In this document: in pieces, positions 325 to 61,334 of the stretch
Numbering within the stretch: position 1 is the stretch's first letter
Layout: every line of letters starts with the position of its first letter
Source: Agelas oroides
Lineage: Eukaryota > Porifera > Demospongiae > Agelasida > Agelasidae
Direction: 5' to 3'
Assembly: GCA_949130485.1 (NCBI GenBank)
Contig: OX422195.1
Coordinates: 3,524,566 to 3,588,565, forward strand
DNA: 64,000 bases
The notes under the pieces: generated by a model
Databases searched by the model: none
What the model was told of the DNA's origin: nothing
What the model saw: the letters and a program-made list of their open reading frames with translations, nothing else
Position numbers and translations under genes: made by a program

Positions 325-3300
325 ATGATTGCAGATAAGCACAATACGGAGGAGGTGGGGACGGAGAGAACGATCAATGGTCGGAAAATCCCGTTGGGAA
401 CGCGGCTGCTGGAGAAGCTAGGACTATGTAACTGCTGCCCCAAGGCAAGGTGTGCGTTCATGTTTATATCCTGATTGAAGCGAACCTTCTGCTAGAGCTA
501 TCTTCCAGACCACTACACTGTGTACCAATTTTGGGCCAGGCAATTGTATGTCCGGGATAAGACTTAGCAGTCACAAAAAACTTTTTTCGGCCGGGCAGGG
601 TGTCTTGCCTGTTGCAGTCTTTCTGCATTTTTAGCTGCTGTAGAACGGTACAAGAAGCAGTAATGATCCCTGAAAGGCTCAGCATGGTAATTGAACGGTT
701 AAACTGCCTACTTCCAGTTTGTGCTACACAAAGTGGCAATAGCTATTATAATAATATTAGTACCTCGGTACTAACCATGCAGAGTTACAGAGTTAGCCTA
801 AAGATCCAGCCTGAGAATCGAACAGTGTCTATGGATAAATACCATCTATCCTCTGCTCCAATGCCAGAGCTCCAGTGGCTCAGTTGGTAAGAGCATCTGA
901 CTAGAATTCAGAGGACCCAGGTTCGAATCCTGGCTGGATCTCAATGTCTTTTTTCGCCATCATTTAACTCTGCAAATAAAATACATCTCAATATAATAAT
1001 ATTGTTAGTTATGATTGCATGGTTGGCAGCAAATACAATGGCACTTGTTCTGTGAGCATTTTAAGGTTCAGTTTAGATTCGAAAGTAAGTAAAAGTAAGC
1101 AATGATGAAGTGTTTTGATGAATGTCATGTCCTTGAACCATGTTTCAGCTAAACTCTGGTCACTGTTACATGTAGTTTGGCAGGAATGCCCTTCATCAAA
1201 CTTGTGTGATGTAATATCACTTACTGTGAAGATACGTTTTGTGCTAGCATGCAGAAAAGGTGGGATAGGGGAGGTGGGATAGGGGAGGTGGACATGGGTC
1301 TGCTATGGCTAGCTATAGAAATTAAGCCATTAGTTACCTTGTACAGGCTCTATTTTGCCATGCACTATATATAGTCTGCAGTTCTCGGTCTGCATGAACA
1401 AGTGTTGCTGAGTATTGAAAGGTCACTATATAGTGGGTGTGGTCAGAAATACAAGAAAAGCATGGTGGAGGGACCCATTGACTAAAATTGGAAGTTGTAG
1501 AAAGTGAAAATTCAGTTGGTTGCAACTTAGTTTAGTTAAACCATGCAGCAGCCATATGGTGTGATTGAGCCACTCATGGGTTGCAATAATTGAACCATTA
1601 TACACTGATTCACACATAATATAATAGCACACATGCCCCCTCCGCTTCTGTATTATGCACATTGTAGTGTACTTTTCTCTGGTATTCTGTTGCATGAGGC
1701 CTGTTCCCAATATGCAAAAGCAGTAACATGTATGAATAATTAGTATAATTATGAGAAGTAGGATTACAAAATGTTTGGTCCTCTCTCCCTTTAACCACAT
1801 ACACCCACAGTCATAAAATAGCCGTCTTCTTTCTGACTGTCTTCTGTTACACTACCTATCTCATTGCCAGGAAGTCCTTCAGTGTTGTGAAGGTAAAGTG
1901 CATCAAAAGTACATACTACCTCCTCCTCTCCTTCCTCCTCCTTCCTACCCCTTCCCCCATGCCAGCTATGTTCAAGCATAATAGTATTTCAATTGGAAGA
2001 AAATGCTATAATTTGTCATTTGTTTCAGCAAGCAATCTTGGGGGGCAACTGGAAAGGTGGGAAACGGGAAACGGGACAGGAAGCAGGCAATCTCCTTGTC
2101 TACAATAATAGCTCTCCGACTGCTCACTCAACTACAATGAAGAAGTAGGGATTAGAGTTGTGACCTGGACATACACACACATTCAGGTAGTCCTGTGTCC
2201 ACGCTGTGCCGGTGAAGGTAGCAACTCTTCAAATGAAAGCTTCAACTATGCAAACTATACATATGATGCTGGAAGTGGAGACTCTCCCGTCATACCTGGA
2301 TGGCATCCCTTCAGTAAGTTGTGATCGTGTAATTCCATTCTTGGGCAACTCTCCACCATTCATGGGATCCCTTCAGTAAGTTGTGATCATGTGCAAAAGC
2401 AGTCCCATCCCATTCATGGGCAATTATAGCCGTGTTCCCAGATCCCCACCTAGTGTTTTATCACCAGCTTTTCAGTTCTGCAAGAGACGAAAAGCTGAGT
2501 GGGGGCTGGAAATGAAGCTAAGACAACTGTACACTCTTCATGACTAGCAGTATGGATAATCAAAGTGGGGTGGATCTACACACATTTTGATTGTTGAATA
2601 TTTTACTCCAGATGGACCCAATGGGCAGACATTGCTTGGTTTAACAGACTTTTGCTTTGTGTTGGCATACTCTGTTTTCATGTTTGTCAGGTGCGTTAAT
2701 CATCATATGCCACAATGTTATCTCAAAACTCACACTTTGTTAAGCACATTCTACTTATAAGCGCGTAGACATCTATTTGCTGTTAAGCGCTGATTTGCAT
2801 GCCATTATTGCTGCACTGTACTATTAATGAACCACACACAAATGCACCTCACTGCGTGTTAGGCGCATTTCGCTGTTAAGTGCTCATTTCCGTCCTGTGG
2901 AGATATAAGCATAATATGTGCTTAACAACACATGAGTGCAATATGTTGTGATGGACAGTGGTATATTTGCACTTGTGGTCTTGTAGCATTTGTGTGAATA
3001 GTATTGTGTTTGTACTGTGTTTGATGTGCACTGCACTGATGAAGGGATTGTACTTAGACCAAAATGTAGATCACATAACCGTTACTGAATTTCAATGGCA
3101 GGCAAATCTTGTGATAAGTGTCTTTCTCCTCCAGTGGTCAGATTGCAGACCGAGTAAACCTGAGATACTTCCTCACTGTTGGCATGATTGGTATGCACTA
3201 CTCATGTGTGTTACATGTACATTGTACATGTGTGGTTGTTCTTCAACTGCAATGTATACACTTTTATGCATGCAAGATGTATTAAAGAGGGATGTGGCAG

Positions 3301-6300
3301 CAGTTCGCTGCAGTCGTATCCTTGCTTGAACAATAGTGGGCTAGCTCACTAGTTTTGTACCAACGGACCACTAAAATGCTTTTGGGCATGTTGCAAATAC
3401 TGGGCAGGCCTGTATGTAGGTGTAAATCCAGCATCTACTGCTATAAACTCCCTGTGGGGAAATCTAACAAGGTACAAAAAACATGAAAGGTTTGAATTCA
3501 GTGTGGTTGAGTAAAATTTGTGTACGCTCAATCAATAACTACAATGCTTGGTGGGTATAATTGCTAGGGTTGCAGATACTTCATGGGCTCAACCACCTGT
3601 CACACCATTCCACTTTCATATAATATATACCTGTACATGTGTAACAAGATACACTTGAAGCTATGTAAGTAACATACCATGGTATGTCTAATTCCATACC
3701 ATGAAACAAATTGCTCGTTGTTATCATGTGTTAGATTTATTTGACTACAAGCGGTGAAGCTACAAGCACTATCTGTGAAAAAACAATCTAACACACACAG
3801 TAGCTGTTGTCCCTTTCCCTGTTAACTGATGAATGAGCTCCTAGACCTTTCATGAGCCTCAATAATAAGGGAAGAAAAATTGTTACCATGGTGATGGCTA
3901 CTGAGTTCAACAATATTTGCTCACTGTGGTGATAAAGGCCTTCCTTTGTTTGCTTGAGTTGCAACTTATACTCAACTGTGGCTGCAGTCTACCAGTGTCC
4001 TGTCTTTGCTTGTGTGTGAGGGTTTCCTTCATGCTTTTGTCGCTTGTAGTACGGCTGTACGGCTAGGTAGCTCTTCGATATTAAGCTACTGAAGCAGCTG
4101 CTACAGTGATTTGCTTCATTCAAAAAGAAAAACCAGCTATACAATGGTGGGCGTAAACCGGAAACAATTATTGCGCTTGTGTGGTAGCTTACCCGCCACC
4201 TTAATGGATTTGTTAGTTAATCCCTGTCCACGGTTCTCTTCTTCCATCACAGGGAGTGGCACGGCAGTTTCACTACTGGGTGTGGCATACTTTGCCAACA
4301 TCCAACACATAGCCTACTTTATTGTGGTGCAGATATTATCTGGTATGATGCAGGTATGGCCAATATAGTTGGTACCCTATAGTATTTTATGCTTGACTTC
4401 AAAAGAAAGCCCCTATTATTGCCAAGAAAAGCAGGCATTATATCCTGGGAGTTGTGTTGAGTGGCAGAGCACCAACACCGGCTGGTTCATTATGTGAAAA
4501 ATTCTTTTCTCTGCACACATCAAGTGCAAAGTTAAACATAATGGGATATGGAGATGGGACGTTCATGGTGGGGCAGTTATGGCGAAGTGAGTTACTGTTT
4601 TTGGGGAGATATGCACTGGTCTTCAGGTGACTAGCGATTTATACTTGTGTGACCAGGTTATGGGCCATGTATATTAAAATGTCAACGCAAAAGTTGATAT
4701 TTCCTTCCTTTTCATCACAAGAACACTGTAAAGATCCACACAAAGTCCTGCCTTTCTTGTTATTCATGATATGTTTAAGGGTATATAGTCTCATTGCTAA
4801 TCTGTCATACACGTTTGCTCTCAGAGCCATAGCAGTCAGTTTGTTGAGACAATTAGTTCTCTTATTTTTCAGTCTACTGGACTGGCTGGACTGACAGCAG
4901 TGGTGGCAAACTGGTTTGGAAAACAAAAGTGAGTAACAGTAAGGGGTTAGGGTCTTCTTTTGTACCCGGCAAATCTCATTGTGCACCACTATGGTGGATA
5001 CCCACGGTATCTTCCCACTGGCCATGAGTTTAGCTGTCCCACAATAATCCTGCAGGGAAATGTATAGTCAAGTGTCTGGTTACCCCCTACTATCCATAGC
5101 ACACTGCTTAACTTTATTGCTAATATTTCATCTGATTGTTCATCAGCAGTGCAAATAACAAAACTATGTAAAAATCAACATTGTTCAGTTTGTCATTATA
5201 TATGTGGCAGTCCCAGGTAGATATCAAACATTATTCCATTACGTAATTCGACTGAGTTACCGCATTTGAAACGCTGTAGCGCAAAATTTCTGTTAAGAGT
5301 GGGGCTCATACATGCACCGAAAATGCATGAATACCTGATAAGTCTACGTAAAGTGTATGAGCCCCGCCCTTAACGGAAGTACTGCGCTACAGCGCTTTGA
5401 ACGCAGTAATGCAGTCAAAATACGCCACGGAATAATGTTAGATTTCTACCTAGGACTGCCACAGAAGAAGAGTTGCTGAAAATCGTCTGGCAATAAGCTG
5501 ATGCTAGGGGATGAACACCTTAGCTGGGGCAATAGGCAGGAACTCTCTGAATGCTATCAAAGTTGGAGGTGTTACAGTTATGTGCATGTGTGAATAGCTT
5601 TGAGTAACTATGACACACATTTCATTTGGTTATGTTATTTGCCTTGATCAGGACTGTATTGACATATCCAAATTTCTATTCTAATTTGTGAAATTGGTTT
5701 CCTCAGAATTTTTTTACATTTCTGGGCGAGATCCGAACTGAGAATCAGCCCTTGAAGTGAGTAATAGCAAAAAGCCCTCCCTCTTGATTTCTTCTCTCCA
5801 GCCGAGGACTCCTGATGGGCATATGGAGCTCCCTAACTCTTGTTGGAAACATCCTAGGTGCTATAATCCCCTCATTCTGGGCCACCACCCCCAACTCACC
5901 CTGGAGTTGGTCCTTCTTTGTACCTGGCTTCATTGTTGGTGGCATGGTACTCATCACCTTCTTCTTTCTGGTGACAGGTATGGGGGGGGGGGGGGCTGGG
6001 TGTCTGTCAGTTTTAATGAAATAATTATGAATGTGATCTGATGACACCCATACAGTAATGTAAAAAGTAGTAGCTAGCATGGTTGTAGTATTTCCATATA
6101 AAACTTGTAAATAGGTATATTGGTGTACCATAGTGTCCATGGGCGCTCGCAGCTCAAGCACCAAAAATTGGGGGTGGGCGGTTACACAGAGGAGGTGCTT
6201 GAATGGTCCAACTATCTCCGTGCAAGCGCCCACCCCGGATCCGAAGTTAGCTGACAGGCGCTACTGAATTGACTCGCGTCGTAGCTTCGCCCATGCTTCG

Positions 6301-12300: not shown

Positions 12301-15300
12301 CGTGTCTCTTCTTACACGAAGTACGGAGTAACTCGGGTTTGAACGCACTGGTTCTAATTAAAGCGCACGCTGGTTGCTAGGATATCGCACGTATATAGCC
12401 CCAGGGCCCGTGCAATATCGTGTGATATTGCACGGCACGGGAATAGGAAAATACTGTTGTAAAAATATCAACTGGATAATAAATACATTTACACCACAGT
12501 GCTGCTGATTGCATGTGGTGCCTGCATAATTGGACCTTACCGTATCATCACAACTGCTGTTTCCACAGACCTGGTATGAGGAAAATTGCATTATACACAT
12601 ATATAATATTGCTTCATTAGTTATTAGGATAACCATTTTGCCACTTGAAATGATTGGCATAAATGGTGATCGTATACCCCAGGCAGAATTTTCCTACTAT
12701 ACTTTATTCCATGTCATTGCACTACATAAATTCTTTGAGATAATAGCGTATGTAGCTAGCAGCTTGATATCTGCCACCCTACTTGTCATAGTGATAGACA
12801 AGATAGCTAATGGCCAATGGAAAGCTTTCCCACCAGCAATACATTACTGCATGCATGCAGTCATAAGTGATATGTTGCAGTCACTTAGACTTCATGGTTC
12901 AGTATATCGGGTGTCCGATTTTGTTACAAACAACAGGTGACAATTTTTCACCCACAAAATTTTCTACCCTCAATCTCTAAGTTTCACTACCTGCATCCTA
13001 TTAGAATGCTGTCAATCACAGGAACCTGGGTCTTCATTACAAGAGCAGAAGATACAAAACAGATGCAAATGATAAATTGAGGCCAGCTTATAACATGGAA
13101 GAAAGGTGCAAAATGGAAAGTAAGGCAGCATGGTTGCTATTTTCATAGCGTAGTGGTTGTTCTCCCTCCTCTTATGGAACTGACATGATAGCCTGTGATG
13201 GATGACTCACTCAACGCTAAAAATCACTGTGGCCAAACTACCTGCAGAAGTTTAAATCCTTATGCCACCATCAAACTGTATATCATGTATTGGAAAATTA
13301 CATGTTCAAGCTTTTCATAACAAATTTCTTCCACCAAAATAACCATGTTATGATGAGTATTAAGAGAAAATAAGAACCACAACTGTAGCTTGTTCACCAT
13401 ATATTGAGTCGTTACAAGAGAAAGTAAGAACCACAACTACAGCCATATGATCTCATTCCTCTGTAGGCCACAGGAAAGGATAACCGGAATGCAACAGCAA
13501 CAGTTACTGCTATTATTAATGGGACAGGTTCTCTAGGTATGTTTAGCACTGTGCATTTGTGGAAAACTTCTAATTATGGTATAAAAAAAAAACATGCACT
13601 TGCACTTGCACAGGGTGCTTTAGTGCACAGGGTGCTCACAGGGTGCTTTAGTGCACAGGGTGCTCACAGGGTGCTCACAGGGTGCTCACAGGGTGCTTTA
13701 GTGCACAGGGTGCTCACAGGGTGCTTTAGTGCACAGGGTGCTTTAGTGCACAGGGTGCTCACAGGGTGCTCACAGGGTGCTCACAGGGTGCTTTAGTGCA
13801 CAGGGTGCTTTAGTGCACAGGGTGCTCACAGGGTGCTCACAGGGTGCTTTAGTGCACAGGGTGCTCACAGGGTGCTTTAGTGCACAGGGTGCTTTAGTGC
13901 ACAGGGTGCTCACAGGGTGCTCACAGGGTGCTTTAGTGCACAGGGTGCTTTAGTGCACAGGGTGCTTTAGTGCACAGGGTGCTTTAGTGCACAGGGTGCT
14001 TTAGTGCACAGGGTGCTTTAGTGCACAGGGTGCTTTAGTACACAGGGTGCTTTAGTGCACAAGGTGCTTTAGTGCACAGGGTGCTTTAGTACACAGGGTG
14101 CTTTAGTGCACAGGGTGCTTTAGTACACAGGGTGCTTTAGTGCACAGGGTGCTTTAGTGCACAGGGTGCTCACAGGGTGCTTTAGTGCACAGGGTGCTTT
14201 AGTGCACAGGGTGCTCACAGGGTGCTCACAGGGTGCTTTAGTGCACAGGGTGCTTTAGTGCACAGGGTGCTTTAGTGCACAGGGTGCTCACAGGGTGCTC
14301 ACAGGGTGCTTTAGTGCACAGGGTGCTTTAGTGCAGGGTGCTTTAGTGCACATGGTGCTTTAGTGCACAGGGTGCTCACAGGGTGCTTTAGTGCACAGGG
14401 TGCTTTAGTGCACAGGGTGCTTTAGTGCACAGGGTGCTTTAGTGCACAGGGTGCTTTAGTGCACAGGGTGCTTTAGTACACAGGGTGCTTTAGTGCACAA
14501 GGTGCTTTAGTGCACAGGGTGCTTTAGTACACAGGGTGCTTTAGTGCACAGGGTGCTTTAGTACACAGGGTGCTTTAGTGCTCAGGGTGCTTTAGTACAC
14601 AGGGTGCTTTAGTGCACAAGGTGCTTTAGTGCACAGGGTGCTTTAGTACACAGGGTGCTTTAGTGCACAGGGTGCTTTAGTGCACAGGGTGCTCACAGGG
14701 TGCTCACAGGGTGCTTTAGTGCACAGGGTGCTTTAGTGCACAGGGTGCTTTAGTGCACAGGGTGCTCACAGGGTGCTCACAGGGTGCTTTAGTGCACAGG
14801 GTGCTTTAGTGCAGGGTGCTTTAGTGCACATGGTGCTTTAGTGCACAGGGTGCTTTAGTACACAGGGTGCTTTAGTGCACAGGGTGCTTTAGTGCACAGG
14901 GTGCTTTAGTGCACAAGGTGCTTTAGTGCACAGGGTGCTTTAGTACACAGGGTGCTTTAGTGCACAGGGTGCTTTAGTGCACAGGGTGCTCACAGGGTGC
15001 TCACAGGGTGCTTTAGTGCACAGGGTGCTTTAGTGCACAGGGTGCTTTAGTGCACAGGGTGCTCACAGGGTGCTCACAGGGTGCTTTAGTGCACAGGGTG
15101 CTTTAGTGCAGGGTGCTTTAGTGCACATGGTGCTTTAGTGCACAGGGTGCTTTAGTACACAGGGTGCTTTAGTGCACAGGGTGCTTTAGTGCACAGGGTG
15201 CTTTAGTGCACAAGGTGCTTTAGTGCACAGGGTGCTTTAGTACACAGGGTGCTTTAGTGCACAGGGTGCTTTAGTACACAGGGTGCTTTAGTGCACAGGG

Positions 15301-18300
15301 TGCTTTAGTGCACAGGGTGCTTTAGTGCACAGGGTGCTCACAGGGTGCTTTAGTGCACAGGGTGCTTTAGTACACAGGGTGCTTTAGTGCACAAGGTGCT
15401 TTAGTGCACAGGGTGCTTTAGTACACAGTGTGCTTTAGTGCACAGGGTGCTTTAGTGCACAGGGTGCTCACAGGGTGCTTTAGTGCACAGGGTGCTTTAG
15501 TGCACAGGGTGCTTTAGTGCACAGGGTGCTTTAGTGCACAGGGTGCTTTAGTGCACAGGGTGCTTTAGTGCACAGGGTGCTCACAGGGTGCTTTAGTGCA
15601 CAGGGTGCTTTAGTGCACAGGGTGCTTTAGTGCACAGGGTGCTTTAGTGCAGGGTGCTTTAGTGCACATGGTGCTTTAGTGCACAGGGTGCTTTAGTACA
15701 CAGGGTGCTTTAGTGCACAGGGTGCTTTAGTGCACAGGGTGCTTTAGTGCACAGGGTGCTTTAGTGCAGGGTGCTTTAGTGCACATGGTGCTTTAGTGCA
15801 CAGGGTGCTTTAGTACACAGGGTGCTTTAGTGCACAGGGTGCTTTAGTGCACAGGGTGCTTTAGTGCACAGGGTGCTTTAGTACACAGGGTGCTTTAGTG
15901 CACAAGGTGCTTTAGTGCACAGGGTGCTTTAGTGCACAGGGTGCTTTAGTGCACAGGGTGCTTTAGTGCACAGGGTGCTTTAGTGCACAGGGTGCTTTAG
16001 TGCACAAGGTGCTTTAGTGCACAAGGTGCTTTAGTGCACAGGGTGCTCACAGGGTGCTCACAGGGTGCTTTAGTGCACAGGGTGCTTTAGTGCACAAGGT
16101 GCTTTAGTGCATGGAACCAATAGTTACCTACTAGAGACTATTGAGTATTCACTAGCCCATCATAGTAAATGCCCCCATACATGCATTGTACAACTGTAGC
16201 AATAGCTTTAGAGTTGCTGTACTAAGATCTTGGCTTTGAATCTCAATGTGCATGTCTCAAGACACCTAGAAGACTAGCTACATTGTTTGAAATGTTATGC
16301 ATAATCAAATTTTGAAATTTTGCCCCGAGATATCTGTGACAAGTTTGGACTATAACCCTGTATTGCACGCCTGAAGAGTCGCAAAGAGGAGCAAAGATGC
16401 ATGGTCTGCTATACTGTACCTCCCCAGTACCACACTGAATGCCAGTAGATTTCAGCTGTTGAGTGCTTTAAGCAATTTTGTGTATCATACCATTTTAGTG
16501 CTTAACTATATACACAGGTGCTGCAATTGGGCCATTGATAGTTGGCTGGCTCACTGATCAATATGTGAGTTGCTTGTATATACATATAGTGTGTGGTTAG
16601 CCCCATTACATACTACCACAATTGTCATTCACCACAGGACTGGACCAGTGCATTCTATTTATTAATGGGCTGCTGCTTTCTTTCTGCCATGGTAAGTACT
16701 AGGATTTCTTCATCATTCATGCGATGAAAGTGGCTCAGTGGTAAGTATACTTTTTCAAGCTGGGATGGCTTCATCATTCATGTGATGAAAGTGGCTCAGT
16801 GGTAAGTATACTTTTTCAAGCTGGGATGGCTTCATCATTCATGCGATGAAAGTGGCTCAGTGGTAAGTATACTTTTTCAAGCTGGGATGGCTTCATCATT
16901 CAAGCCATGAAAGTGGCTCAGTGGTAAGTATACTTTTTCAAGCTGGGATGGCTTCATCATTCATGCGATGAAAGTGGCTCAGTGGTAAGGATACTTTTTC
17001 AAGCTGGGATGGCTTCATCATTCAAGCCATGAAAGTGGCTCAGTGCATGGTAATAAAAGCAGGATTTCAGTGAACTCTATTAAAAAGAACCCATTTTGAG
17101 TTTGCAAAGACCATGCAATTGTAACTTTCTATAATACACCCATCAGCAAACAATTTATGATGGTCAAGCTTTCAAAAACATTACTCTGTCTAGCTACCTT
17201 GAGAGTTCATGTTAAAAGAGCAATGGCATGTGCAGTGAGGGTAGGCTGCAGCATCTGTGCAAAACAAAAGCTATTTTACTTTTCGTCATGTCAAATGGCT
17301 GTACTGTCTGTACATAGCAACTGTACCTCTTGTTTGTCTAAGCTGTCCCAGGTAAGGACTGCTTATCCAAGTAAGAACTGTGCATAGTAGAGACGAGCTA
17401 GACAGCTCATTATACAGTACTTTCACTAGCTGCAGTCCTGTCATGGTTTGACTACGTACATTACGTATGGCCAATATACAGTGAATACTTAGTGTTTGAT
17501 GCTGGTAGTGTGAGGAACCAACATTGTAGTTCATGTACACAGTGCACAACAATTAATAGTAGTCTGACAATTCATTGTGGAACTAGCCTGAGTGAGCAGC
17601 ACACTTTGTCATGGACCATGATCTTGCATGCATAGCAGCAGGGGTTGCTGTTACCTGAGCGTGGTGAGGCAACTTAAACAATGCTATAAGTCCTCACCAG
17701 AGGTAGTCTGCAGAAAACTTGCTGCCAGTTAGGGCAGCTAGTATGGTAGCTTCGTATCCTACTGTGCCTGTGCTTAGATAGGCATGGACTAAGCTTCACA
17801 CTGAAATTATGAGCTAAATCTCTGCCATTTGTGAATGTCATTTATGCATGGCCTTTACCTTTAGCAATTTCAACCACTGTGCATAATTTCTGTTATCTGT
17901 GACCAGCCTTGTTTGTCATGATTCATAGTTACATAACCAGGACGTAAATTGCCATGTAGGCTTCAACTCCAGTTGTCTTTGCTCCAGGTCTCTTCACACC
18001 AATGCTGCACTTTGGCATTGACCTTAATTTTCACTCTCAACTGAGCTTGTGTAATCTTTATATTCAAAATGCGCTCTTTTAAAATTTATGGTACATCACA
18101 AGCATACAACCAATGCAGTCCTGCTGATGTGGGGCTTGTTCATTTAGGAGTAGTGATAAAAAGTTAATAGGTGGTCCTTCTTAAAAATAAAAAATTATCA
18201 TCATTTTCATGAAAGCTGGTAGCGAAGAGTGAAGTGGATGTTTGCGTCAAAGGTGCTGAACTGACGAGAAACATTTCACTGCCACTCATGCTTAAACATG

Positions 18301-18727: not shown

Positions 18728-18772
18728 ACACACACACACAAACAGACACACACACACACACACATATAAAGC
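18728..18772 (+). repeat. CA microsatellite
   Basis: (CA)n interrupted by AACAGA, in the SLC37 3' untranslated region immediately after the stop codon. Confidence 0.8.
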
Positions 18773-22083: not shown

Positions 22084-22474
22084 ACGATCGCAAGACCTGG
22101 GCCTACCCAATGAGTACAGTCTTGGCCACTGTGGCCTTTCTGCTGCTTCTAGACACGAGCTTGCTTTCACAAGCAGGCATCACTACTCACAGCTACTGAC
22201 ACTACAGCACTCTACTAAACTCTTTTTTTTTCTTTTCTTTTTTTTCTTTTTTTAAGTCGATCTAAGCTTATCTTCAAAGTTCCGACCACCACATGAGGGG
22301 TTCCGCCAGACCACATCTTAACTAACTTAATTATAAACTGATTATATTGGATGGCAATGTCGACAGGAAACGGGGAAAATCCCCAATTTTACGGAGAGTG
22401 AACGGTTGAACTTCTGCTCTTCTACTATGACAGGTTCACCAAAATATTTTCACAAATTCCTGCTACCACAAAGC

Positions 22475-24000
22475 TAGCCTTGTTCCCAGGCTCTCTCCTC
22501 GAGGCTAGGACCAGTGGCGTAGCCAAGCTGGGGCACACTGGGGCACGTGCCCCAGCAACCGGAAGCCGTGCCACACCAACTGCAGGCGCGCTTGCAAATT
22601 ATCGATGCCGAAAGCATAGATAATAGAGACTCGTAACCGGGATTGGAAACGCGGAGCGGAAGTCGCATGTAACACAATACATTAACACACGGGCACTCCG
22701 CGTTGCACAGGAAGTGTTGAATTTTTCACCTTTTGGACGCAGCTGCTACAAGATTCAGAGACGACCAGAGGGAGAAAGAAGACTGCTTTCCGCACTTGGG
22801 TGGTGAATGCGTTGCTGGGAGGTAAGCAAGATGACTGTCTGGGAGGCATAATTTCGTAGTGTGCATTAATTTGGGTAGCTGTTGTTCAAATAAGCGTTTA
22901 ATGATGTGGTGATTGGGAGTTGAGTGTGGAATGGGCATGAATTTTGCTCTTTGTGTACCTATATTTCCCCTTGAGTAAGTCTTTCTTGGTGTTTGAGCCT
23001 TCCCTTAGATTAGTCTGAGTGTGGGCTTTGTGATGATGCCAAGTTTGTGAGCATTCTGCTCCTCCAAGTTATACTATGCTCAAAGAAAGTGTGAATCTCT
23101 GATGTACTGTGGCTCTAGTTTTCCCTCAACTTTCTGTACCTCTCATGGGGCTGTTTAATGCCTTAATGGAAAGAATTTGGTGTTTGCATGATCTTCCACC
23201 TTTCTGTTATGGACTCAGACCATTGTGATATTTGGGGACACTTGTGATCCTGTGATATATTGGAAAGTTTATGATAATATATTATGTTTCCACGGACTCA
23301 ATGTATTTGGTTTGCAATCGTACAGGATGGGAAGAAAGTTCAGGCTTCACCACAAGAAGAAGCATTATGACCCAAGTTCTGTTGTAGTATCTATTCCCCT
23401 GAGTGCTAGAGAAATTCTTTGGCCTACAGCGACAGCGAGGAAGAGTGAACGAGAACCCTAACGTGCAGGAGTTCTGTAAGAACACTCAGGCTCTCAGGGT
23501 CATAAACTGTTCATGCCTGGGCCCTGTCAAAGGCAACTGCAGGGGAAGCAACAAGAAGGAGATGACTGCAGCTGACTTGGAGAAGGAGAACCAGCCTCTC
23601 AGGAAGAGAAAAGCCACTAGGCCTACAAAGGGAAAACAGTCACTGACACAATAATTCTGTACATGTATTATTATTAACCAGTGCACTTTGATGACAACAA
23701 CCATACAAGTCATGAGAACTATAGCCATTACATGTTGTCTTGTGTAGTTAGTTTCCGTCTGAGGGACTTGGATTTACCAGAGTCATCGCGCTGTCGTGCT
23801 TGAACCGCCATCTACCTTCCAGATCAGCTTCACAACCAACAACAGATATCCTTGTTCAAGTTTATTTACGCTAAATTAGAAAGGCATTCACTTCCGGAGC
23901 GCAACGCGGAGTGTAGTGCAAAATATCAGCGTTTCCAATCCCGGTTACGAGTCTCTATTATCTATGCCGAAAGTGCCGTTGTCGACCGCGATCGGGTGCT
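22475..24000. mobile_element. composite transposon region bounded by inverted repeats
   Basis: A TAGCCTTGTTCCCAGG foldback end (22475) is followed by a CAGTGGCGTAGCC end (22512) closely related to the element at 61819. A stretch near 22605-22718 recurs inverted at about 23895-23985, sharing GAGACTCGTAACCGGGATTG and CACTCCGCGTTGC. The interior has short open frames but no transposase was recognised. A pyrimidine run lies at 22220-22255, just upstream. Confidence 0.55.
23403..23654 (+). CDS. uncertain ORF fragment inside the inverted-repeat region
   Basis: 83 codons, basic at the C-terminus, with a Cys-containing block (QALRVINCSCLGPVKGNCRG) that looks like transposon-encoded protein sequence. 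No family can be named with confidence. It could also be non-coding. Confidence 0.25.
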   Translation: MLEKFFGLQRQRGRVNENPNVQEFCKNTQALRVINCSCLGPVKGNCRGSNKKEMTAADLEKENQPLRKRKATRPTKGKQSLTQ

Positions 24001-38600: not shown

Positions 38601-41600
38601 GATATTCAAATATATATATATACGTACTAAACTTGAAAGCGAGTTTCTTATCGGTGAAGACGAGTAGTTTCCATCACGCTAAGGTCTGGAGTCCGAAAAC
38701 GCGTTAGAGCGCTCGAACGGATGGTCCTGTGCGTTGTTTTGGCAGTTGGGCCCCTCCCCCCCTATGTCCACCTTGCGTCCACCTGACGTCATTCACGTGA
38801 TGAATGCTCCCAGGCCTTCCCCGTTTTTTGCCGGCCTTCCGCTCCCGTGTATTATTGTGAACGCAAACGGAAGGTAAAACGGGGGAGGCCTGGGACCGAG
38901 GATAGTTATGGCTACTAGGACTGCTAGGAGGACCACAGTGTGTTCCGACTGGGCCTGTAAAGGTTGCAAAGTTCAGCCAGTGTTCCAGTTAAGTCCAGCT
39001 CTGAGAAAGTGACAATCAGTTGGAATTTGGCTGTGGCCTCTAGGCAATGCTGCTTATGTGTCTAGTCCCATGTAGCCTTGTTCCCAGGCCTTCCCACCAT
39101 CCAGATTTTGATCACTTGCAGTATGCAAAAACGGAGGGGGAAGGCCTGGTCCATTTTATCATGTGAATGACGTCAGTGTCTACCTATGTAGACAGAGGGG
39201 AGGAGGGGTCCCCGATCGAAAGAACGCGTAAAGAATGAGCTTGAGGCTTTATCTTGTAGTTTCTGCTCCAAGCGCTGGAGTTTCGAACGTTTGCGAAGCA
39301 AAAAATGTACCGCTCCTGGTTCAAAACGAAGAACGCATGCACGAAATGCAATCGGGAACCCCTCCCTCCCTCTGTCTACCTAGGTAGACACTGACGTCAT
39401 TCACATGATAAAATGGACCAGGCCTTCCCTCTCCGTTTTTGCATACTGCAAGCGATCAAAAACTGGACGGTGGGAAGGCCTGGGAACGAGGCTACCATAA
39501 AAGCTTTAATTAATTAAGGCGCCGTTAAAAAGTAATTACGATCCGCAAAGGCACCTTGTTTGGAGCGCAAAAAATTACTTCGGACCCTTGGGGGTGCCTT
39601 GTTTAGAGAGGCGCCTTCAAATTAGAGCGCAACTGGCTTTCCAATGAACTCTGGAGTATATTAAACCAGGCTATCATGAATACAAGCGCGTTTGGAGTCC
39701 AGAGATCAATGAAAGGCTCAACAACAGTCGAAGAACTAGTAGTCTCGAAAGTCGCACGAGTTAGGTGCAAAATCTCTCTAAATAGAAAGCGCCCTTCAAA
39801 AAATATTTATGACCCCAAAGGGTGCCCACGATAGAGCGGGAAAAATTAGTTTCCTGTCATAAGGGCGCTTTCATTAGAGAGGCACCTTAATTAAAGCTTT
39901 TATGGTAGTCCCATGCCCATCCAGATATATGCTTTTCACACATTCGTACAAATTTGATGCCGGCCTGCACCACATATATAAAAGTTATGCAGCTGGCTTT
40001 GACACCTCAATGTGGCTTCAATTATCACCTGCTTAGGCCCTTGTTGGTTGGCTACGTTAAATATACCTCCATGATTGTGTCAACATATTTTGTGCAATGT
40101 TACCAGACAGATTTCCTGTTGTTATGTATAACCGGCTAGGCATGAGATTATGGGTACACTCAATCGTGATACAACACTGAAGTCGAGCAAAAATGCAGCC
40201 ACCTTTGCCTCTATCATGTATACAAATGCTACTAAACTACCAATCTCATTGTTTGTTTTGAAGTCGTTCCATCATGCTTTCTAAACTGGCCAAGACAATG
40301 TCACTTAACACACTGACAGACGAATCACTCAACCCTGCTTGCATATGTGTACACAGGGTAAGAACTATAAGGCGGTGCCACCTGTATACATGCTTATTGG
40401 GGCAAGCCTGAGCCAAGTCCCAAACTAGCAGAAATGCATTGTGAGTGGGTTTACCTTTTTGAACTGGCAGAATGTCAAATAAGCAGATTTGTGATTAGGA
40501 GTGAAGACCTTTGTAAAGACCCAACGTTTGCGACAATACACAGCACCTCTGCTTTATGTAAGCTACCTCTGGAACGCAGAGAGTGGCAGAGATTGGTCTA
40601 AACTGCCTCAAAGGCTACTACAAGCTTGATGGTTTGAGTGCAAAGCTTAGCCCATGTGTAGAACACTTCAGCCATAGTAGAGCTACCCTGGCTGGACTAA
40701 TGCTGTTAGGTGATGGCTGCATAGTCTGCATGTGTGGTCACCTGCCTCTGGTGTGACTACTACTCAGGTTACTCACTCAGGCTTGCCCCACAATGATGAA
40801 GCATCTCCCTAGTACTCTTTAGTTGAGCATGGTAAGGACTCCTTAGCTACTGCATACACTATACAATGATACTTACGTTCTCTGAGTTGCCATTGTTGTT
40901 CTCGTAGGTGGTCTCAATCTCAATTAGCAATTTCGGCACAAATGAACACTGCAGAAATAGACGTACAGGTTAGACATGACAGTAAGGGAAATAGGTGGAA
41001 CTCTTTAATGATTACTGCACTGGCCTAGCCTTGTTCCCAGGCTCCCCCGCTCCAGAACACAAACATCACTAGGGGAGGGGAGCCTGGTATCTTTTCTCAC
41101 ATGACCATGACATAATTAGAAAGGGGCCACAATTTTCAGAACAAGAAGGCAATGTTTTGCACATTGTTCAACCAAATATACGTTCCATGCTTGATATGTA
41201 GAATATTCACCCCCCGCTAGCTAGATACTTGTAGTATGTTGCCCAGTACCCTTGCTTTTTTTGCTGCTCTGAGCACCCAGGTACGCCCGTGCACAATTAG
41301 GGTCTTTCTCCCCTTTCTACCTTTGACATTGCTCACGTGAGAAAGATACCAGGGTTCTCCCCGCCTTCACGTTTGCCATGTTCACATTCCAGAGTGGGGG
41401 AGTGAGCCTGGAAATAAGGTTGGGAACAAGGCTACAGCGGCACTAAAATCACAATTTAGAGCTAGTCCAAAATCTTGTTACACAACAACAAAGATTGGGT
41501 TGGAGCCAAAAAAGTGTCTGTCACAGTGGCATGGATACTGTAGACAAGCCAGGCTGGCATGATAGCAGATGTTCTGATGGATGCATAATACTGCAGGCAT

Positions 41601-47600: not shown

Positions 47601-50231
47601 CCTGCACCTCAAACCAATCATTATTCAGTCTAAGCACCTGCACCTCAAGCCAATCGTTATTCAGTCTAAAAAACCTGCACCTCAAGCCAATCGTTATTCA
47701 GTCTAAAAACCTGCACCTCAAGCCAATTATTCAGTCTAAAAACCTGCACCTCAAGCCAATCATTATTCAGTCTAAAAAACCTGCACCTCAAGCCAATCAT
47801 TATTCAGTCTAAAAACCTGCACCTCAAGCCAATCGTTATTCAGTCTAAAAAACCTGCACCTCAAGCCAATGTTATTCAGTCTAAAAACCTGCACCTCTCG
47901 GCTATTTAATTTGCATTCAGTCTGTCATAGTGACAAACAAGTAAGGCTTGTGTTTTAGCAAACATCATACGGATATCACCGTCCCTTCACATGATATCTT
48001 AGTTGCTGTTGTATGGAGATGGCATCCCATCCGTTCCAATCAACAGCATTTTGCACATTCCTACACTCATATAAGCACAATAGTTTCTGTCACACATTAC
48101 AGTAAATATGCAATATAAGCAAAATTAAATCCTGTTACATTCATAGATATATATGGAGTCAAGGTATTTGCTTGGACAGGATCCACATTCACAGCTAGTG
48201 TGGGGAAAGCATGAGTGAGCCCCAATCACAAACTACTGTATTTGTCAAATGAATGATGCTGAGTACTCCCTTTCCTAAACCATTATAGAAAAAGTATAGG
48301 GATTTAAAACGTGTCTTTGTAAGTGCACTAGCAGACAAAAAGGTGTGGCTGCCAGGATGAAATCCCACACTATTTTACCTCTCACAGGAAATTTAACTGC
48401 AACATGAGTATACTCACAGACCTCCACTTCTTCTCTTTTCCACACATGCACACACACACGCACACACATGCACGCACACACACACATATGCACAGACACA
48501 CACACATGCACACATACACACACACACATGCACCACACACACATGCACACACACGCACAGACACACGCACACACATACACATGCATGCACACACATGCAC
48601 ACACACACACACACAAACACACACCTGCACACATACACACACATGTACACACACACGTACACACACACACGTGCATACACTCACACGCACACATGCACAT
48701 GCACATGCACATGCACACGCTCACACACACACATAAACACACACCTGCATACACACACACACACACACAACACACCTTGACAGATAGATCCTCTTCTCTG
48801 TGTATTGTCCATCTCCATGTTTGTCATCATGGCACGATTCATTCACCACCACCTCCACACCATCACCACTCCCACGACTCTCTTCTGCACTGTGACGTGC
48901 AATCATGTACAGCTGGCCAATGCGATACTGCATACACAGGAAAGAGTTGTGAGTGCATGCAGGAAGACAAACACAAAGTCGTCAGCTACAAAAACCTCAA
49001 TGTACACATGCACTTTGATTTAATATCTGAGGCATGTTCAGTAGAGTACACGACTGTGTACACAGGAAGACAAAGATAAAGATACATTACATTAATGGTG
49101 TAATCAACAGGAACACATGGTTTGATTTATATGTAATAACAATAAGGCCATGAACTGCGGCACTCAACTACAAGAACAGGGCTATCCTACCACACAGGCC
49201 ACACAGGGCTGTCCTACCACACAGGGCTATCCTACCACACAAGGCTATCCTACCACACAGGGCTATCCTACCACACAGGGCTATCCTACCACATAGGGCT
49301 ATCCTACCACACAGGGCTATCCTACCACACAGGGCTATCCTACCACATAGGGCTATCCTACCACATAGGGCTATCCTACCACACAGGCTATCCTACCACA
49401 TAGGGCTATCCTACCACACAGGGCTATCCTACCACACAGGGCTATCCTACCACACAGGGCTATCCTACCACACAGGGCTATCCTACCACACAGGGCTATC
49501 CTACCACACAGGGCTATCCTACTACATAGGGCTATCCTATCAATGCTGGAAGGAACTTTGATAAGCTGGCAAACCAAAAAAAAAAAAAAAAAAAAAAAAA
49601 TAACAAGGGAATGTGCAACTACACATGTGCAAAGAACACCATATGGACCCCACCATCGATATCTATGACCACACATACAAGCTTTGCAGTCCATACTGGA
49701 AGCAGACTGGATTTTGGTTGTCTGCAGTATTGACCTTCCATTAACGTGCATCAATGTGTTAACCAATAATGTAGCTGCAAACTCTAGATATGTTTTCTGT
49801 CCTGCCGGCCTAGCAACAGCACACATACATGTAGCAACTCAGTTCACAAACCATAACCAGCAAAACCTTGTCAGAAAATTACGTGACTGAGGATCTACGT
49901 CCCCACATCTAGCCTCCAACACACTGTGAGCTATGGTGGGTTGCTAGGTAAGAAAACAGTGGCATTTTTCAAGCTGTATGTGACACCACATACACACACA
50001 GCCACTCAACTACTTACAGAACAGCTTGTGGTGGTTTCTTCATATTTCAGTCCACAATACAGCCAGTGTATGACAACCAAATACGCCAGCAATGTGACCC
50101 TGATTCCATATAAATGGCACCTACCTAGCCTAACCTTCACTTAGCTTACACGTATGTAGACGTGGTTATTTTAGATGACTCACCTCTTCTACAGAGAGTG
50201 GCATGCAGACTCTGTACTCCTTGAGCAACAT
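29614..50231 (-). CDS. PITPNC1: PITPNC1-like phosphatidylinositol transfer protein, 10 exons
   Basis: Exons in coding order (plus coordinates): 50184-50231, 48776-48927, 46637-46725, 44683-44690, 40877-40948, 33574-33672, 31787-31846, 30907-31002, 30391-30454, 29614-29717. They total 792 nt, 263 codons plus TGA, with all phases agreeing. The protein starts [16 protein letters not shown] and continues [18 protein letters not shown]-like [64 protein letters not shown] and [13 protein letters not shown]. These match class IIB PITP (PITPNC1/RdgB-beta) along the whole domain. Thr59 and Lys61 fall at the positions that contact inositol phosphate in PITP-alpha. The family carries phosphatidylinositol or phosphatidic acid between membranes. 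The protein stops at the domain end, without the tail of the long human isoform. Confidence 0.93.
29940..30279. mobile_element. MITE, TGGCAGTCC family, with nested insertion
   Basis: Second copy of the element at 5205-5461. The ends TGGCAGTC and GGACTGCCA enclose arms with AGGGCGGAGCTCATA and TATGAGCCCTGCCCTTAACG. Its centre is interrupted by a 71-bp foldback element (30054-30124). Confidence 0.8.
30054..30124. mobile_element. 71-bp foldback MITE nested in another MITE
   Basis: Ends TAGCCTCATTCCCAGG and AAACAAGGCTA; flanked by CATACGAGC at 30045-30053 and 30125-30133. It entered the TGGCAGTCC element, so it is the younger of the two. Confidence 0.85.
31998..32641. mobile_element. element with AACCCTCGGCGC inverted ends
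   Basis: Ends AACCCTCGGCGC and GCGCCGAGGGTT. Near the right end is a short ACAGACAC tandem tract (32572-32602). A minus-strand zinc-ribbon-like frame lies inside. It sits between PITPNC1 exons 6 and 7. Confidence 0.55.
32147..32293 (-). CDS. zinc-ribbon-like fragment within a transposon
   Basis: From a Met at 32293 the frame reads [19 protein letters not shown], then TCERCDHVF and a basic tail. The two C-x2-C knuckles suggest a small zinc ribbon. Such short CPxC-CxxC proteins are common in invertebrate repeats. Whether it is expressed is unknown. Confidence 0.35.
   Translation of the reverse strand: MPPTKVCPQCKAAVPVRRKTCERCDHVFRSKRKAELICERNCAEERVR
32642..33573. other. PITPNC1 intron 6 remainder
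   Basis: Contains a right end of the TAGCCTCG family (GGGAAGGCCTGGGAATGAGG at about 33402-33423); a possible diverged left end lies near 33108. Nothing else recognised. Confidence 0.4.
33673..36157. other. PITPNC1 intron 5, distal part
   Basis: A 13-bp inverted pair ACTTGTACCATGG (35147) and CCATGGTACAAGT (35850) may bound a transposon of about 700 bp. No gene is evident. Confidence 0.35.
36158..36623. mobile_element. 466-bp MITE with AAAGAGTGCCC ends
   Basis: A 22-bp terminal inverted repeat (starting TAGTCTTGCAAAAGAGTGCC on the left) matches the right end with two differences. Repeats of GTGGGCACTCTTT lie near both ends. No coding capacity. Confidence 0.7.
36661..37051. mobile_element. 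MITE with CCGTATTTCTT ends and TA duplication
   Basis: Ends CCGTATTTCTT and AAGAAATATGG flanked by TA (36659-36660, 37052-37053), as in Tc1/mariner-type elements. The body repeats a CGAATAGTAGC(T/C)GC motif three times. Confidence 0.7.
37054..38293. other. intronic stretch with dispersed repeats
   Basis: Repeated GGTGCTTATAATCATGGG-type blocks (about 37735-37770) and GGTGCCTATTTT blocks (37706, 38140-38245) indicate an old transposon. No exon. Confidence 0.4.
38294..38364 (-). mobile_element. tRNA-derived SINE head (anticodon loop CTAGTAT)
   Basis: On the minus strand an A-box-like GTGGTTTGGTGGTA is followed by an anticodon stem-loop TCTGACTAGTATTCAGA and a B box GGTTTGAATCC (38305-38315). 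It resembles the tRNA-like sequence at 869-941. Confidence 0.55.
38391..39062. mobile_element. inverted-repeat element hosting a foldback MITE
   Basis: Arms of about 42 bp: ACATAAGCAGCATTGCCTAG on the left and its complement CTAGGCAATGCTGCTTATGT on the right. The element at 38445-38904 is inserted in it. Confidence 0.65.
38445..38904. mobile_element. 460-bp foldback MITE with perfect 8-bp duplication
   Basis: Ends TAGCCTCGGTCCCAAGCC and GGGACCGAGGATA; arms of about 150 bp include GTGAATGACGTCAGGTGGAC and its complement. Flanking GTTATGGC at 38437-38444 and 38905-38912. Confidence 0.9.
39073..39907. mobile_element. foldback MITE (TAGCCTTG) split by a TA-MITE at its right end
   Basis: The element begins TAGCCTTGTTCCCAGG and runs to GAGGCTA at 39494, with mirrored arms (TGAATGACGTCAGTGTCTAC and complement). 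Its 8-bp duplication GTCCCATG lies at 39065-39072 and, after the second element, at 39908-39915. Confidence 0.85.
39495..39905. mobile_element. 411-bp TA-target MITE nested in the foldback element
   Basis: Ends CCATAAAAGCTTTAATTAA and TTAATTAAAGCTTTTATGG, flanked by TA at 39493-39494 and 39906-39907. The body repeats AAGGCGCC/GGCACCTT-type blocks. Tc1/mariner-like by its TA target. Confidence 0.85.
40396..40794. mobile_element. MITE with ATTGGGGCAAGCCTGAG ends
   Basis: Left ATTGGGGCAAGCCTGAG and right CTCAGGCTTGCCCCACAAT pair with a two-base offset. Related fragments occur near 9103 and 48195. In PITPNC1 intron 5, about 80 bp from exon 5. Confidence 0.65.
41026..41434. mobile_element. foldback MITE (TAGCCTTG family), 409 bp
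   Basis: Ends TAGCCTTGTTCCCAGG and GGGAACAAGGCTA; inner arms share GGTATCTTTCTCAC-like blocks. The flanks CACTGGCC and CAGCGGCA are only partly alike, so the target duplication has decayed. Confidence 0.75.
41958..42149. mobile_element. foldback MITE (TAGTCTCA variant), 192 bp
   Basis: Ends TAGTCTCATCCCAGACC and GTCTGGGCATGAGACTA, flanked by CCACTGGAC on both sides (41949-41957, 42150-42158). Confidence 0.85.
42159..43677. other. PITPNC1 intron 4 remainder
   Basis: No exon in phase with PITPNC1 and no repeat recognised. Confidence 0.4.
43678..44245. mobile_element. hAT-like element with CAGGCCCGGCGG ends
   Basis: Left CAGGCCCGGCGGAAGC, right GCTCCGCCGCCCCTG. The left part carries a TTCTGAGGCTATTTAGGGC block like those at 9272-9560 and 21740-22083. 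No target duplication is visible. Confidence 0.6.
44683..44690 (-). CDS. PITPNC1: 8-nt micro-exon of PITPNC1
   Basis: On the minus strand, GTTGACAG precedes and GTAAGTC follows the eight bases AATACACG. Joined between exon 3 (ending ACT G) and exon 5 (starting TGT TCA), they encode Thr-Glu-Tyr-Thr-Cys-Ser, the sequence found in vertebrate PITPNC1 (ITEYTCSF). Without it exon 5 is out of frame and hits TGA. Frame, homology and splice signals all agree. Confidence 0.85.
45418..45485 (-). mobile_element. tRNA-derived SINE head, diverged
   Basis: The minus strand reads GTGGTTGTAGCTCGTGGTCA (A-box-like) and, about 45 nt on, CCCTGGGTTTGAGTC (B-box-like). The anticodon arm is degenerate. Confidence 0.4.
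46081..46187. mobile_element. short foldback MITE (TAGCCTCA), 107 bp
   Basis: Ends TAGCCTCATCCCCAGGC and TCTGAGGACAAGACTA, with imperfect 9-bp flanks GTTAGCATA and GCTAGCGTA. Confidence 0.7.
47190..47900. repeat. 36-38-bp minisatellite, about 19 copies
   Basis: Unit TCAGTCTAAAAACCTGCACC followed by TCAAGCCAATCATTAT. Units differ by one or two As in the A-run and by ATT/GTT. On the minus strand the 36-bp versions read as a 12-residue repeat ([12 protein letters not shown]), but this is intronic PITPNC1 sequence. Confidence 0.9.
48440..48775. repeat. CA/TG microsatellite abutting the PITPNC1 exon 2 donor
   Basis: About 330 bp of CACA with interspersed CACATG and CACGCA. On the PITPNC1 strand the intron begins GTGTGTTGTGTGTGTG, so the 5' splice site is itself the edge of the array. 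Confidence 0.9.
49193..49545. repeat. 18-bp minisatellite, about 19 copies
   Basis: Unit CACACAGGGCTATCCTAC with CATAGG variants, in PITPNC1 intron 1. There are no spacers, so it is not a CRISPR array. Confidence 0.9.
49576..49601 (+). repeat. poly(A) run of about 25 bases
   Basis: An uninterrupted A-run 30 bp after the 18-bp minisatellite; possibly a retroposon tail, though no retroposon body is seen. Confidence 0.7.
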
Positions 50232-59500: not shown

Positions 59501-61334
59501 ACACTACTGTGTGCACTCTGCAGACACAAAGCAAACATTGCTAACCTTGGATTTCTGTTTGGGCCCTATGAGCAGAAGGGAGTAAGTGCATCCAGTATTG
59601 AAAAAGGAGAGAGTGTAGACTCAAGCAGTGCTGGAAATAATGTAGTAAACACAAAACTTGTAGACTCTGTTTCTGCAAACCAGGAGGCAAGTACTATGAG
59701 TTTTTGGGTACATGAAGACTGTGTTGTATGGGCCCCTGGTGTATGTTTAGTCAACAACCAGTTGATGGGACTGGAAGAAGCTGTTAAAGAAGCCAAAACT
59801 ATGGTATGTTGCATGCATGATGGTATGTTGCATGCATGATGGTATGTTGCATGCATGATGGTATGTTGCATGCATGATGGTATGTGCATGCATGATGCAT
59901 GAGTTGTAAGAAAGGCTTTGCTCTGTTTTGAGATAGTGTTGCTTGGCGTTATTTTGGAATTGATGACTATAGTTACTATATAGTGTGTACCACTTATTAT
60001 GCCCTCCCTTTACATGCCTCACAGGTGTGTAGCAGCTGCAAGAACACAGGTGCCACTCTATGCTGTAGTATTCGGGGTTGTAAGGCTGTTTACCACTACC
60101 CTTGTGCAGCAGAAAGTGGTGAGCCAGTGGTACAGTGTAACCTATATGGAGCATTTGGTTGGAACCAACAGTTGTGCAGATCCAATAGTATGCAAAAAGC
60201 TATTGTCATAAAACAACCTGGGCAATTATTTTGATGACCCCAAGTCACTTACTGGAAGCCTTAGGTGCACCTGCATTTACATTGCACCAAGGAGGCTGAA
60301 TTACTGTACACAAGAGGTGGTTGCAGTTTACATAACTCTGCCTGTGTTCACCAGAATCGGACTTTAGTTGGTTTTTACAACCTTCTGGGGGAGTGGACTT
60401 GACCTTAACAGAAGGTTTTTCATGAAGAATGCATTGGGCATTGTACGCTGTAAGCCCATGAAAACTGCAAAGCATGTGTTTGTTTTTCTTACAATGAAAA
60501 GCTTTCTGTCATTAAATTCCTCCCACTCTGTAGACGATGTTCAAAGTCAGTAACAAATAGGTCTGCTCTACTGTTCAGCTTGTGGACTAGGCAGACTCAT
60601 AAACTTGTATGCGTGTTTAATAGTCTATACAGACGCTAAGTTGCAGCAGACTATGTGTTAATAAGCCTTTTTATTGCCAAGAACCCCCTAGTAACCGGCT
60701 GCACACATACCCCCAATTAGTTCTGAGCACCCTTAAAGTGGTGATTTCAATGTAGTCTGGTCCATGCAGGATAAAAAATCCTAAGTGCATGTAGATTTGC
60801 TAGTACTGTACAACCCGTCCCACAATGCACTTGGTAGTAGTAATTATCTCATGACTATAAGTTTCTCTTGTTCACTACTCTTGTCAATCAAGGGTGTTAT
60901 CACCTTTAGAGATCTCAAAAGTTCGTGTTTCAGCTTTTGCAATCTTACAGAGACTTTTACACACTTTTTGAGACTAGAAGGTTTTAAGGGAGAGACTTCC
61001 AAAGATACTGCCCACTGGAACCATGGCAGTGGTGGGCGGCCTTATAAGCCCAGGTTTAGTTCCGTTATTGATCCAGGGAACAAGTACAGGGCAGACAAGA
61101 CATCAATTTCATGCATTGCTGAACCAGAAATTTGCACTCTTTACATTGTAACTTCCTTTCTAGGTACGTAACCAAACAGTTTTTCTTTATTTTACTCCAG
61201 GTTGTACATTCAAAGATGACCAATTTTTAGTGTACTGTCCAAAGCACAAGGATGTGAGTTCTCACAATGTATGCTTGTTGGATTTCAGACACATTTGCTG
61301 TTTACACCACCAGACTATTTGGCTATTGTTGTGA
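50542..61334 (+). CDS. TCF20: TCF20/RAI1-like chromatin protein with YSQ-repeat N-terminus and extended PHD, 8 exons
   Basis: Exons 50542-55044, 55125-55172, 55341-55526, 56310-56366, 57583-57675, 57893-59803, 60025-60118 and 61201-61334. Six of the seven introns are in phase 0; about 2,341 codons. Residues 1-1070 are rich in Tyr, Ser, Gln and Thr with 39 octapeptides (564-875). A proline-rich segment spans about 1070-1168, then basic low-complexity sequence. Exon 3 has six 9-residue repeats. Exon 6 has KKQKR (possible nuclear signal) and four 28-residue repeats (1901-2012). The C-terminus is an extended PHD domain: LLCALCRHK (2167 on), FGPYEQKG, FWVHEDCVVW, VCSSCKNTGATLCC, YHYPCAAESGCTF and YCPKHK. 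This arrangement matches TCF20/RAI1, nuclear coregulators that bind nucleosomes. A loop of about 40 residues is inserted before FWVH. A strong donor after KHKD could give another end (exon at 62303, Gly-Arg-stop). Confidence 0.85.
51797..51950 (+). repeat. 33-bp coding repeat
   Basis: Four to five near-identical 33-bp units encode SASGTDSHDTQ. They form the most regular part of a longer series of 11-12-residue repeats (SQDTQS type) in residues about 250-480 of the TCF20-like protein. Confidence 0.8.
52231..53166 (+). repeat. 39 tandem 24-bp units encoding AYSQDPQ(A/T)
   Basis: Consensus GCCTATTCACAGGATCCTCAG plus GCT or ACT. All 39 copies stay in frame. Variation is confined mainly to position 1 (A/G/T), 4 (D/N/G) and 8 (A/T); Tyr is invariant and Ser is replaced only once (by Pro, or Ser at position 1). 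Codon choice is nearly identical between copies, which indicates recent expansion. Confidence 0.95.
53749..54045 (+). repeat. proline-rich coding segment
   Basis: CCA/CCN-rich DNA encoding long proline runs with two copies of QQEWPHPPPPLP and an interspersed LPP/ELP motif. Such stretches commonly bind WW, SH3 or EVH1 domains or profilin; no partner can be named. Confidence 0.85.
56367..57582. other. TCF20-like gene intron 4
   Basis: Contains a hAT-related fragment near 56850-56955 (TTTCCTGGGGGAGCATGCCC and ATCTGAGGTC), related to the family at 21740 and 61819. No exon in phase. Confidence 0.45.
58706..59041 (+). repeat. four tandem 84-bp coding repeats
   Basis: Each encodes NLSVSKETKSDSDSKG followed by VAGHKEKPKQLG. 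The copies differ by single bases (GCT/ACT, CTG/CTA), so the duplication is recent. The peptide is highly charged and carries several possible CK2-type SDSD sites. Confidence 0.95.
59801..59893 (+). repeat. 19-bp tandem repeat duplicating the exon 6 splice donor
   Basis: ATGGTATGTTGCATGCATG recurs about five times from the last codon of exon 6 into the intron. Only the first GTATGT (59804) gives a frame compatible with exon 7; each later one would add 19 nt. Confidence 0.9.
60119..61200. other. last intron of the TCF20-like gene
   Basis: No exon in phase or repeat recognised; open frames here are short and unsupported. Confidence 0.4.

Follow-up and report, generated by a model that had tools for sequence, protein, structure and literature searches.

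Repeated 5' splice sites in an SLC37-like gene of Agelas oroides compared with two close paralogs

Comparison with two close paralogs supports the view that the repeated 5' splice sites (donors) following exon 19 of an SLC37-like gene in Agelas oroides descend from a real donor, because the paralogs supply the same intron start in unrepeated form. Minisatellites that carry multiple donors are already known; what is added here is clear paralog evidence for the descent of the copies from a real splice site.

Genes, paralogs and repeat content

The window, that is, the whole stretch of 64,000 nucleotides that was analysed (G000:C13:3524566-3588565), belongs to a genome of 259 Mb in 141 contigs. 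Its SLC37-like gene was modelled by hand with ~22 exons, the exon-10 donor and the end of the last exon being unsettled. The predicted product is an MFS transporter (Pfam MFS_1); in NCBIfam, its best matches are to PgtP and related models, each scoring far below the respective cut-off. The name SLC37, given in an earlier sequence-only reading of the window, would fit such a product. Two other genes of the window bear arrays, one encoding a PITP domain (IP_trans) and the other an extended PHD (ePHD) domain (zf-HC5HC2H). Searching with the exon-3 junction retrieved two more SLC37-like copies just upstream, in a 50-kb cluster. These copies are referred to as P1 and P2, and the window gene as P3. 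Matches to the SLC37-like model were found for 21 of the 22 exons in P1 and for 22 of 22 in P2. A more distant transporter relative lies on the minus strand at G000:C1:32037646-32038138, where two query stretches show 58-67% identity, with longer open frames. Intron 1 of the window gene contains a tRNA-Ser gene (869-942) on the same strand, and a palindromic stretch of ~260 bp (window about 5205-5465) looks by eye like a small inverted-repeat transposon.

Tandem arrays are dense throughout the material. A random sample of 200 kb, consisting of 20 segments of C1-C4 at a fixed 3-Mb spacing, holds 87 arrays with a period of at least 7 (43.5 per 100 kb, 5.3% of bases); the 50-kb paralog cluster has 20 such arrays, and the window has 24, or 37.5 per 100 kb. 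Some lie in open frames. For example, a 1,523-codon open frame (window 50533-55101) has long in-frame arrays of YSQDPQ-type 24-bp repeats, and in the ePHD gene an 84-bp repeat in 4 copies (window 58706-59045) falls within the long open frame and amounts to a 28-residue coding repeat. Others are intronic. Most of one intron in the SLC37-like gene consists of a 17-bp array of ~148 copies (window 13607-16111), which starts ~70 bases past a donor; the same intron is 414-526 bases long in the paralogs. An (AC)n microsatellite detected by TRF (18728..18764, plus strand), which is absent from the list of the sequence-only reading, begins 16 bases downstream of the exon-20 donor in the same gene. Donor strength was scored with a generic matrix built on a consensus rather than trained on this genome.

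Donor copies in the window genes

The features of the SLC37-like gene that bear on the origin of the copies are as follows.

16638..16691, plus strand: exon preceding the array (exon 19 of the sequence-only reading); the frame is open across exons 11-20 of the hand-made model, and the same exon occurs in P1 (94%) and P2 (100%)
16692..16697, plus strand: ATG|GTAAGT, the putative working donor; it keeps the frame, the junction is the same in P1 and P2, and the matrix score is 7.26
16708..17045, plus strand: 61-bp array of 5.5 copies at 96% (TRF), its unit homologous to the P1 and P2 intron starts
16527..16708, plus strand: tract that aligns with P2 without differences apart from an 18-bp gap and ends at the array edge, probably a product of gene conversion
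2305..2390, plus strand: 62-bp tandem duplication across the exon-3 donor, with donors at 2314 and 2376, from paralog comparison and with approximate boundaries

The exon-19 array is a tandem array at an exon-intron boundary, its unit starting at a donor. The donor motif that had been described for each unit is borne out by TRF and by the presence of GTAAG(T/G)AT in five units. Four of the internal donors, at 16741, 16802, 16863 and 16924, read GTG|GTAAGTAT and score 6.69 each, and the fifth, GTG|GTAAGGAT at 16985, scores 5.18. No other copy of the 61-bp unit was found in a genome-wide search. In the coding frame, the extension past the exon-19 donor runs GTA AGT ACT AGG ATT TCT TCA TCA TTC ATG CGA TGA, and all five donor copies consequently meet a stop.

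The array is present in P3 and none occurs at the orthologous junction in P1 or P2, so copy number differs between close paralogs. The exon-19 intron begins with GTAAGTATACTTTTTCAAAAGCTG in P1 and with GTAAGTACTAGGATTTC in P2 and P3. When turned to start at its donor, the P3 unit begins with GTAAGTATACTTTTTCAAGCTGGGATGG and resembles the orthologous intron start of P1 (GTAAGTATACTTTTTCAA..GCTG), and its last 30 bases match bases 22-51 of the P2 intron at 25 of 30 positions. These two matches indicate that the unit is a tandem copy of approximately the first 61 bases of the exon-19 intron, counted from base 1, and the decoys in the array are thus copies of the true donor. When every intron start in the three genes is compared with the unit, that of P1 exon 19 matches best, with a score of 38 compared with 15 for the next outside exon 19. 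With the first five bases left out, P1 scores 28; elsewhere in the 314-kb sample, none of 2,243 donor-like sites reaches this value (maximum 24; the array itself and the P1 site were left out of this null). Since P1, P2 and P3 all have an intron at the same exon-19 junction, no new intron has appeared between the copies.

A second, smaller case lies near the start of the gene. Exon 3 ends at 2313, and TTCA|GTAAGTTGTGATC is seen again 62 bp on, with a donor at 2376. The single 62-bp copy noted from the sequence is therefore a genuine local duplication, in which exon end and donor are tandemly repeated. The matrix score of the copied donor equals that of the real site, and using the copy gives a stop. 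Neither P1 nor P2 has the second donor copy; in P3, the sequence after the first copy resembles P1 and that after the second resembles P2. This pattern may have arisen either by an ancestral duplication with separate losses or by exchange between paralogs. The earlier statement that decoys of the SLC37-like gene lead to early stops holds for all five exon-19 copies and for the exon-3 copy. Base composition, which had been put forward as a reason for dismissing the likeness of array units to donors, does not explain it.

The 182-bp tract common to P2 and P3 runs from within one exon through a 73-bp intron, the following exon and the working donor. The 73-bp intron shows 100% identity between the two genes, compared with 80-95%, where aligned, for the 20 other P2-P3 introns. 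The simplest reading is that the tract probably results from gene conversion, in either direction. Such a conversion would account for a P3 working donor without the 12 bases that are common to the P3 copies and P1.

Repeats also occur near the exon-15 donors of the paralogs. In P2, a 22-bp tandem duplication spans and copies the donor, starting 1 base before the intron (cluster 41481-41522, C13 about 3516046-3516087). The P1 donor is followed, ~30 bases on, by an array of ~1.4 kb made up of GTGGTGAGCATGTCA-type units of 14-15 bp (L034 and neighbours, cluster 22365-23750, C13 about 3496930-3498315), which contains donor-like strings.

Two further arrays lie at donors of the other window genes.

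59801..59897, plus strand: 19-bp array of 5.2 copies (TRF) across a donor of the ePHD gene; the Pfam match spans the hand-made exon junction
48441..48775, minus strand: imperfect GT microsatellite (TRF) at the donor of a PITP exon, beginning at the first base of the intron

The ePHD array begins 3 bases inside the exon. A 19-bp unit containing the real ATG|GTATGT about five times had been described in a gene termed TCF20-like, and it is confirmed here in the gene with the zf-HC5HC2H match, where the real donor lies at 59804 and the copies, with matrix scores equal to that of the real site, at 59823, 59842, 59861 and 59880. Were the copies at +38, +57 or +76 used, a stop would be met before the added stretch ended; the +57 copy stays in frame. 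The +19 copy changes the frame, and no stop falls among the bases that it adds (next exon not joined). The generalization that only the first donor keeps the frame is thus not exact, because the +57 copy is in frame as well. The tract listed as a donor array of PITPNC1 is indeed present at the donor, but it is a GT microsatellite in a place where the intron must begin with GT anyway.

Frequency of arrays and copies at splice sites

The sequence-only reading held that four such cases exceed chance. In the window, 4 array starts fall within 20 bp of a donor, compared with 0.8 expected in 40 introns when all periods are counted (nominal P=0.009), in a post hoc test whose statistic was chosen after the cases had been seen, with the number of introns taken from the sequence-only reading and the array density from the random sample. 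At a period of at least 7, there are 2 compared with 0.7 expected (P=0.16). In the three SLC37 genes, an array starts within 20 bp of 3 of 59 donors compared with 0.94 expected (P=0.07), which is a weak excess; with a period of at least 7, the figures are 2 of 59 and 0.69 (P=0.15).

Copies of the donor itself were counted where the 12 bases around it recurred downstream within 150 bp. At up to 2 mismatches, donors are copied in 3 of 58 introns, where random positions within those introns give 3.59, and at 1 mismatch the counts are 1 versus 2.34. The exon-19 donor passes this test only at 3 mismatches, a level at which 7 of 59 donors pass. For the random segments, splice sites were predicted with the strict version of a home-made exon predictor trained on the sample, which gives rough rates only (in the last round evaluated, 8 of 16 hand-set donors of the SLC37-like window gene recovered among 29 predictions there). 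An array edge lies at 2 of 110 predicted donors versus 1.44 expected, and at 2 of 72 versus 0.83 for the strictest exon score; copied predicted donors number 4 of 105 versus 7.92 expected.

In the random segments, 12 of 505 strong donor-like 9-mers (score above 5) have a tandem copy (2.4%), compared with 3.35% of non-GT positions; in the whole sample, the figures are 22 of 799 and 4.5%. Weaker 9-mers (score 3-5) are copied above background in the whole sample (276 of 3,739, or 7.4%); 130 of the 276 come from the 50-kb cluster, many of them from a single P1 array. Across the genome, the word AGGTAAGT (AG|GTAAGT) occurs in 10,311 copies that form 35 pairs 10-40 bp apart, whereas its reversed control forms 107 pairs among 12,463 copies (Fisher P=4e-7, with clustered pairs that are not independent). 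The spacing used covers 10-40 bp only, and the cases at 61-62 bp fall outside it. Because this word is used by 0 of 59 SLC37 donors, the test is diluted, and many such words may not be donors. The 35 pairs lie at 26 places, six of which were inspected visually. Of these, L041 and perhaps L038 lie behind an exon-like stretch, unlike the other four. At L041 (C6:3197692), the exon-like stretch is followed by two units starting at GTAAGT; L038 (C14:839871) consists of 37-bp units with CAG|GTAAGTG, perhaps after an exon-like stretch.

Comparisons of donors with other positions, of the kind proposed as a check with the original observation, reveal no clear excess, whether by predicted donors, by copied donors or by word pairs. 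Collectively, the counts suggest that copied donors are about as common as repeats elsewhere; the samples are small enough to be compatible with a several-fold excess of array edges at donors.

Copied acceptors, measured against control positions that were unmatched for their pyrimidine-rich make-up, number 0 of 58 versus 3.92 expected (P=0.001) at up to 2 mismatches, and 0 versus 2.45 at 1 mismatch; in predicted exons, they number 2 of 111 versus 5.01. Array ends lie within 20 bp of 1 of 60 acceptors in the three SLC37 genes. Predicted acceptors and predicted donors do not differ in how often an array overlaps them within 20 bp (5 of 116 and 4 of 110, respectively). Copied acceptors look rarer than expected, and the asymmetry with donors is offered as a lead only. 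A downstream donor copy may leave the first donor in use, whereas an upstream acceptor copy would be met first.

Origin of the copies and known systems

The account that we consider probable is that, in an array-dense genome, a duplicated segment now and then includes a 5' splice site, the exon-19 copies being tolerated by-products that were later followed by P2-P3 conversion. Approximately the first 61 bases of the exon-19 intron, from base 1, would have been tandemly duplicated, with a possible 2-bp microhomology (the exon end ATG and the unit end CAGTG share TG), and would have grown to about six units. Each unit would thus carry a genuine donor copy. The copies would be tolerated because the first donor, which is in frame, presumably goes on being used. 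A later conversion, within the tract common with P2, would have replaced the exon and the first donor up to the array edge. We infer this order of events, the use of the first donor and the lack of function of the copies.

It is possible, with some doubt, that misaligned exchange between paralogs, rather than slippage within one gene, made the tandem donors, with P3 joining P1-type and P2-type copies. The P1-like and P2-like copies at exon 3, the combination of a P2-type first donor with P1-type units at exon 19, and the identical P2-P3 tract, which shows that exchange occurred, all accord with this origin. However, the same pattern would result if the duplication were ancestral and P1 and P2 had undergone separate losses. 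A broader proposal, which seems rather unlikely, is that donor arrays act as a device of splice-site turnover: expansion would make spares, and contraction or paralog exchange would promote one of them, replacing intron starts much faster than point mutation. The working donor of P1 is closer to the internal copies of P3 than P3's own working donor is; at exon 3, one of the two P3 copy types is found in P1 and the other in P2.

Two mechanisms had been suggested from the sequence alone, namely donor-seeded slippage and selection for redundant or decoy donors, and both meet the difficulty that donors are copied at the rate of random positions; in the three SLC37 genes, array starts near donors are weakly in excess. 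Slippage of this kind, in which 5' splice sites make duplications start there, for example through strand exposure during transcription, is an unlikely explanation. It draws on that weak excess and on the repeats that start at the donor in exon 19, in P2 exon 15 (22-bp unit) and at L041. Nevertheless, predicted donors in 200 kb show no clear excess, strong donor-like 9-mers are copied less often than non-GT positions (2.4% versus 3.35%), and the reversed control paired more often than AGGTAAGT. Selection is quite unlikely. Downstream donors might be kept to add stops and lower expression by message decay, or to back up the main donor; the copies score little below the real donors (6.69 versus 7.26, and equal in the ePHD and exon-3 cases), and most of them lead to stops. 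Yet copied donors do not exceed background, and the feature is not conserved, since P1 and P2 lack the exon-19 array and the second exon-3 copy. That the 61-bp unit is a dispersed or tRNA-derived repeat with a donor-like string by chance is very improbable: one 18-base stretch matches the tRNA-Ser gene at 869-942 at 94%, but the genome holds no other copy that was found, and the unit is homologous to the real donor of P1 and the intron of P2. The tRNA-like reading was dropped after the paralog comparison.

A minisatellite in human IFI6 (6-16/G1P3) reportedly supplies multiple splice donors, an observation credited to Turri et al. in 1995 (cited in PMC4526556 and PMC2572611). A later source describes the use of two downstream units as donors in mRNA (PMC4526556). 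The exon-19 and ePHD arrays are alike in being tandem repeats at an exon-intron boundary with units that carry donor sites. Descent of the donor consensus in the units from a real donor, which characterizes the IFI6 type, is likewise indicated for the exon-19 array, and for exon 3 by direct duplication. Unlike the downstream units of IFI6, the copies in the SLC37-like and ePHD genes are predicted donors, most of which would add a stop. Human paralogs in segmental duplications have internal tandem repeats that vary at exon-intron boundaries, with transcripts supporting changed introns (PMC2812944). Similarly, the recent tandem paralogs P1-P3 differ in repeat number at such a boundary; unlike the human differences as set out there, theirs is read from genomic sequence. 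Intron gain by tandem duplication is comparable in that splice signals are copied when the duplicated segment spans a splice junction, but here no new intron results and an existing intron holds extra donors. A limited literature search by title and abstract returned no paper on donor-copying arrays in such a genome.

Through the paralogs, the states before and after duplication can be compared and the copied donors followed back to the real one. The counts suggest that donor copies in an array-rich genome mostly need no special mechanism. If the acceptor deficit holds in a full annotation, introns would tolerate spare donors better than spare acceptors.
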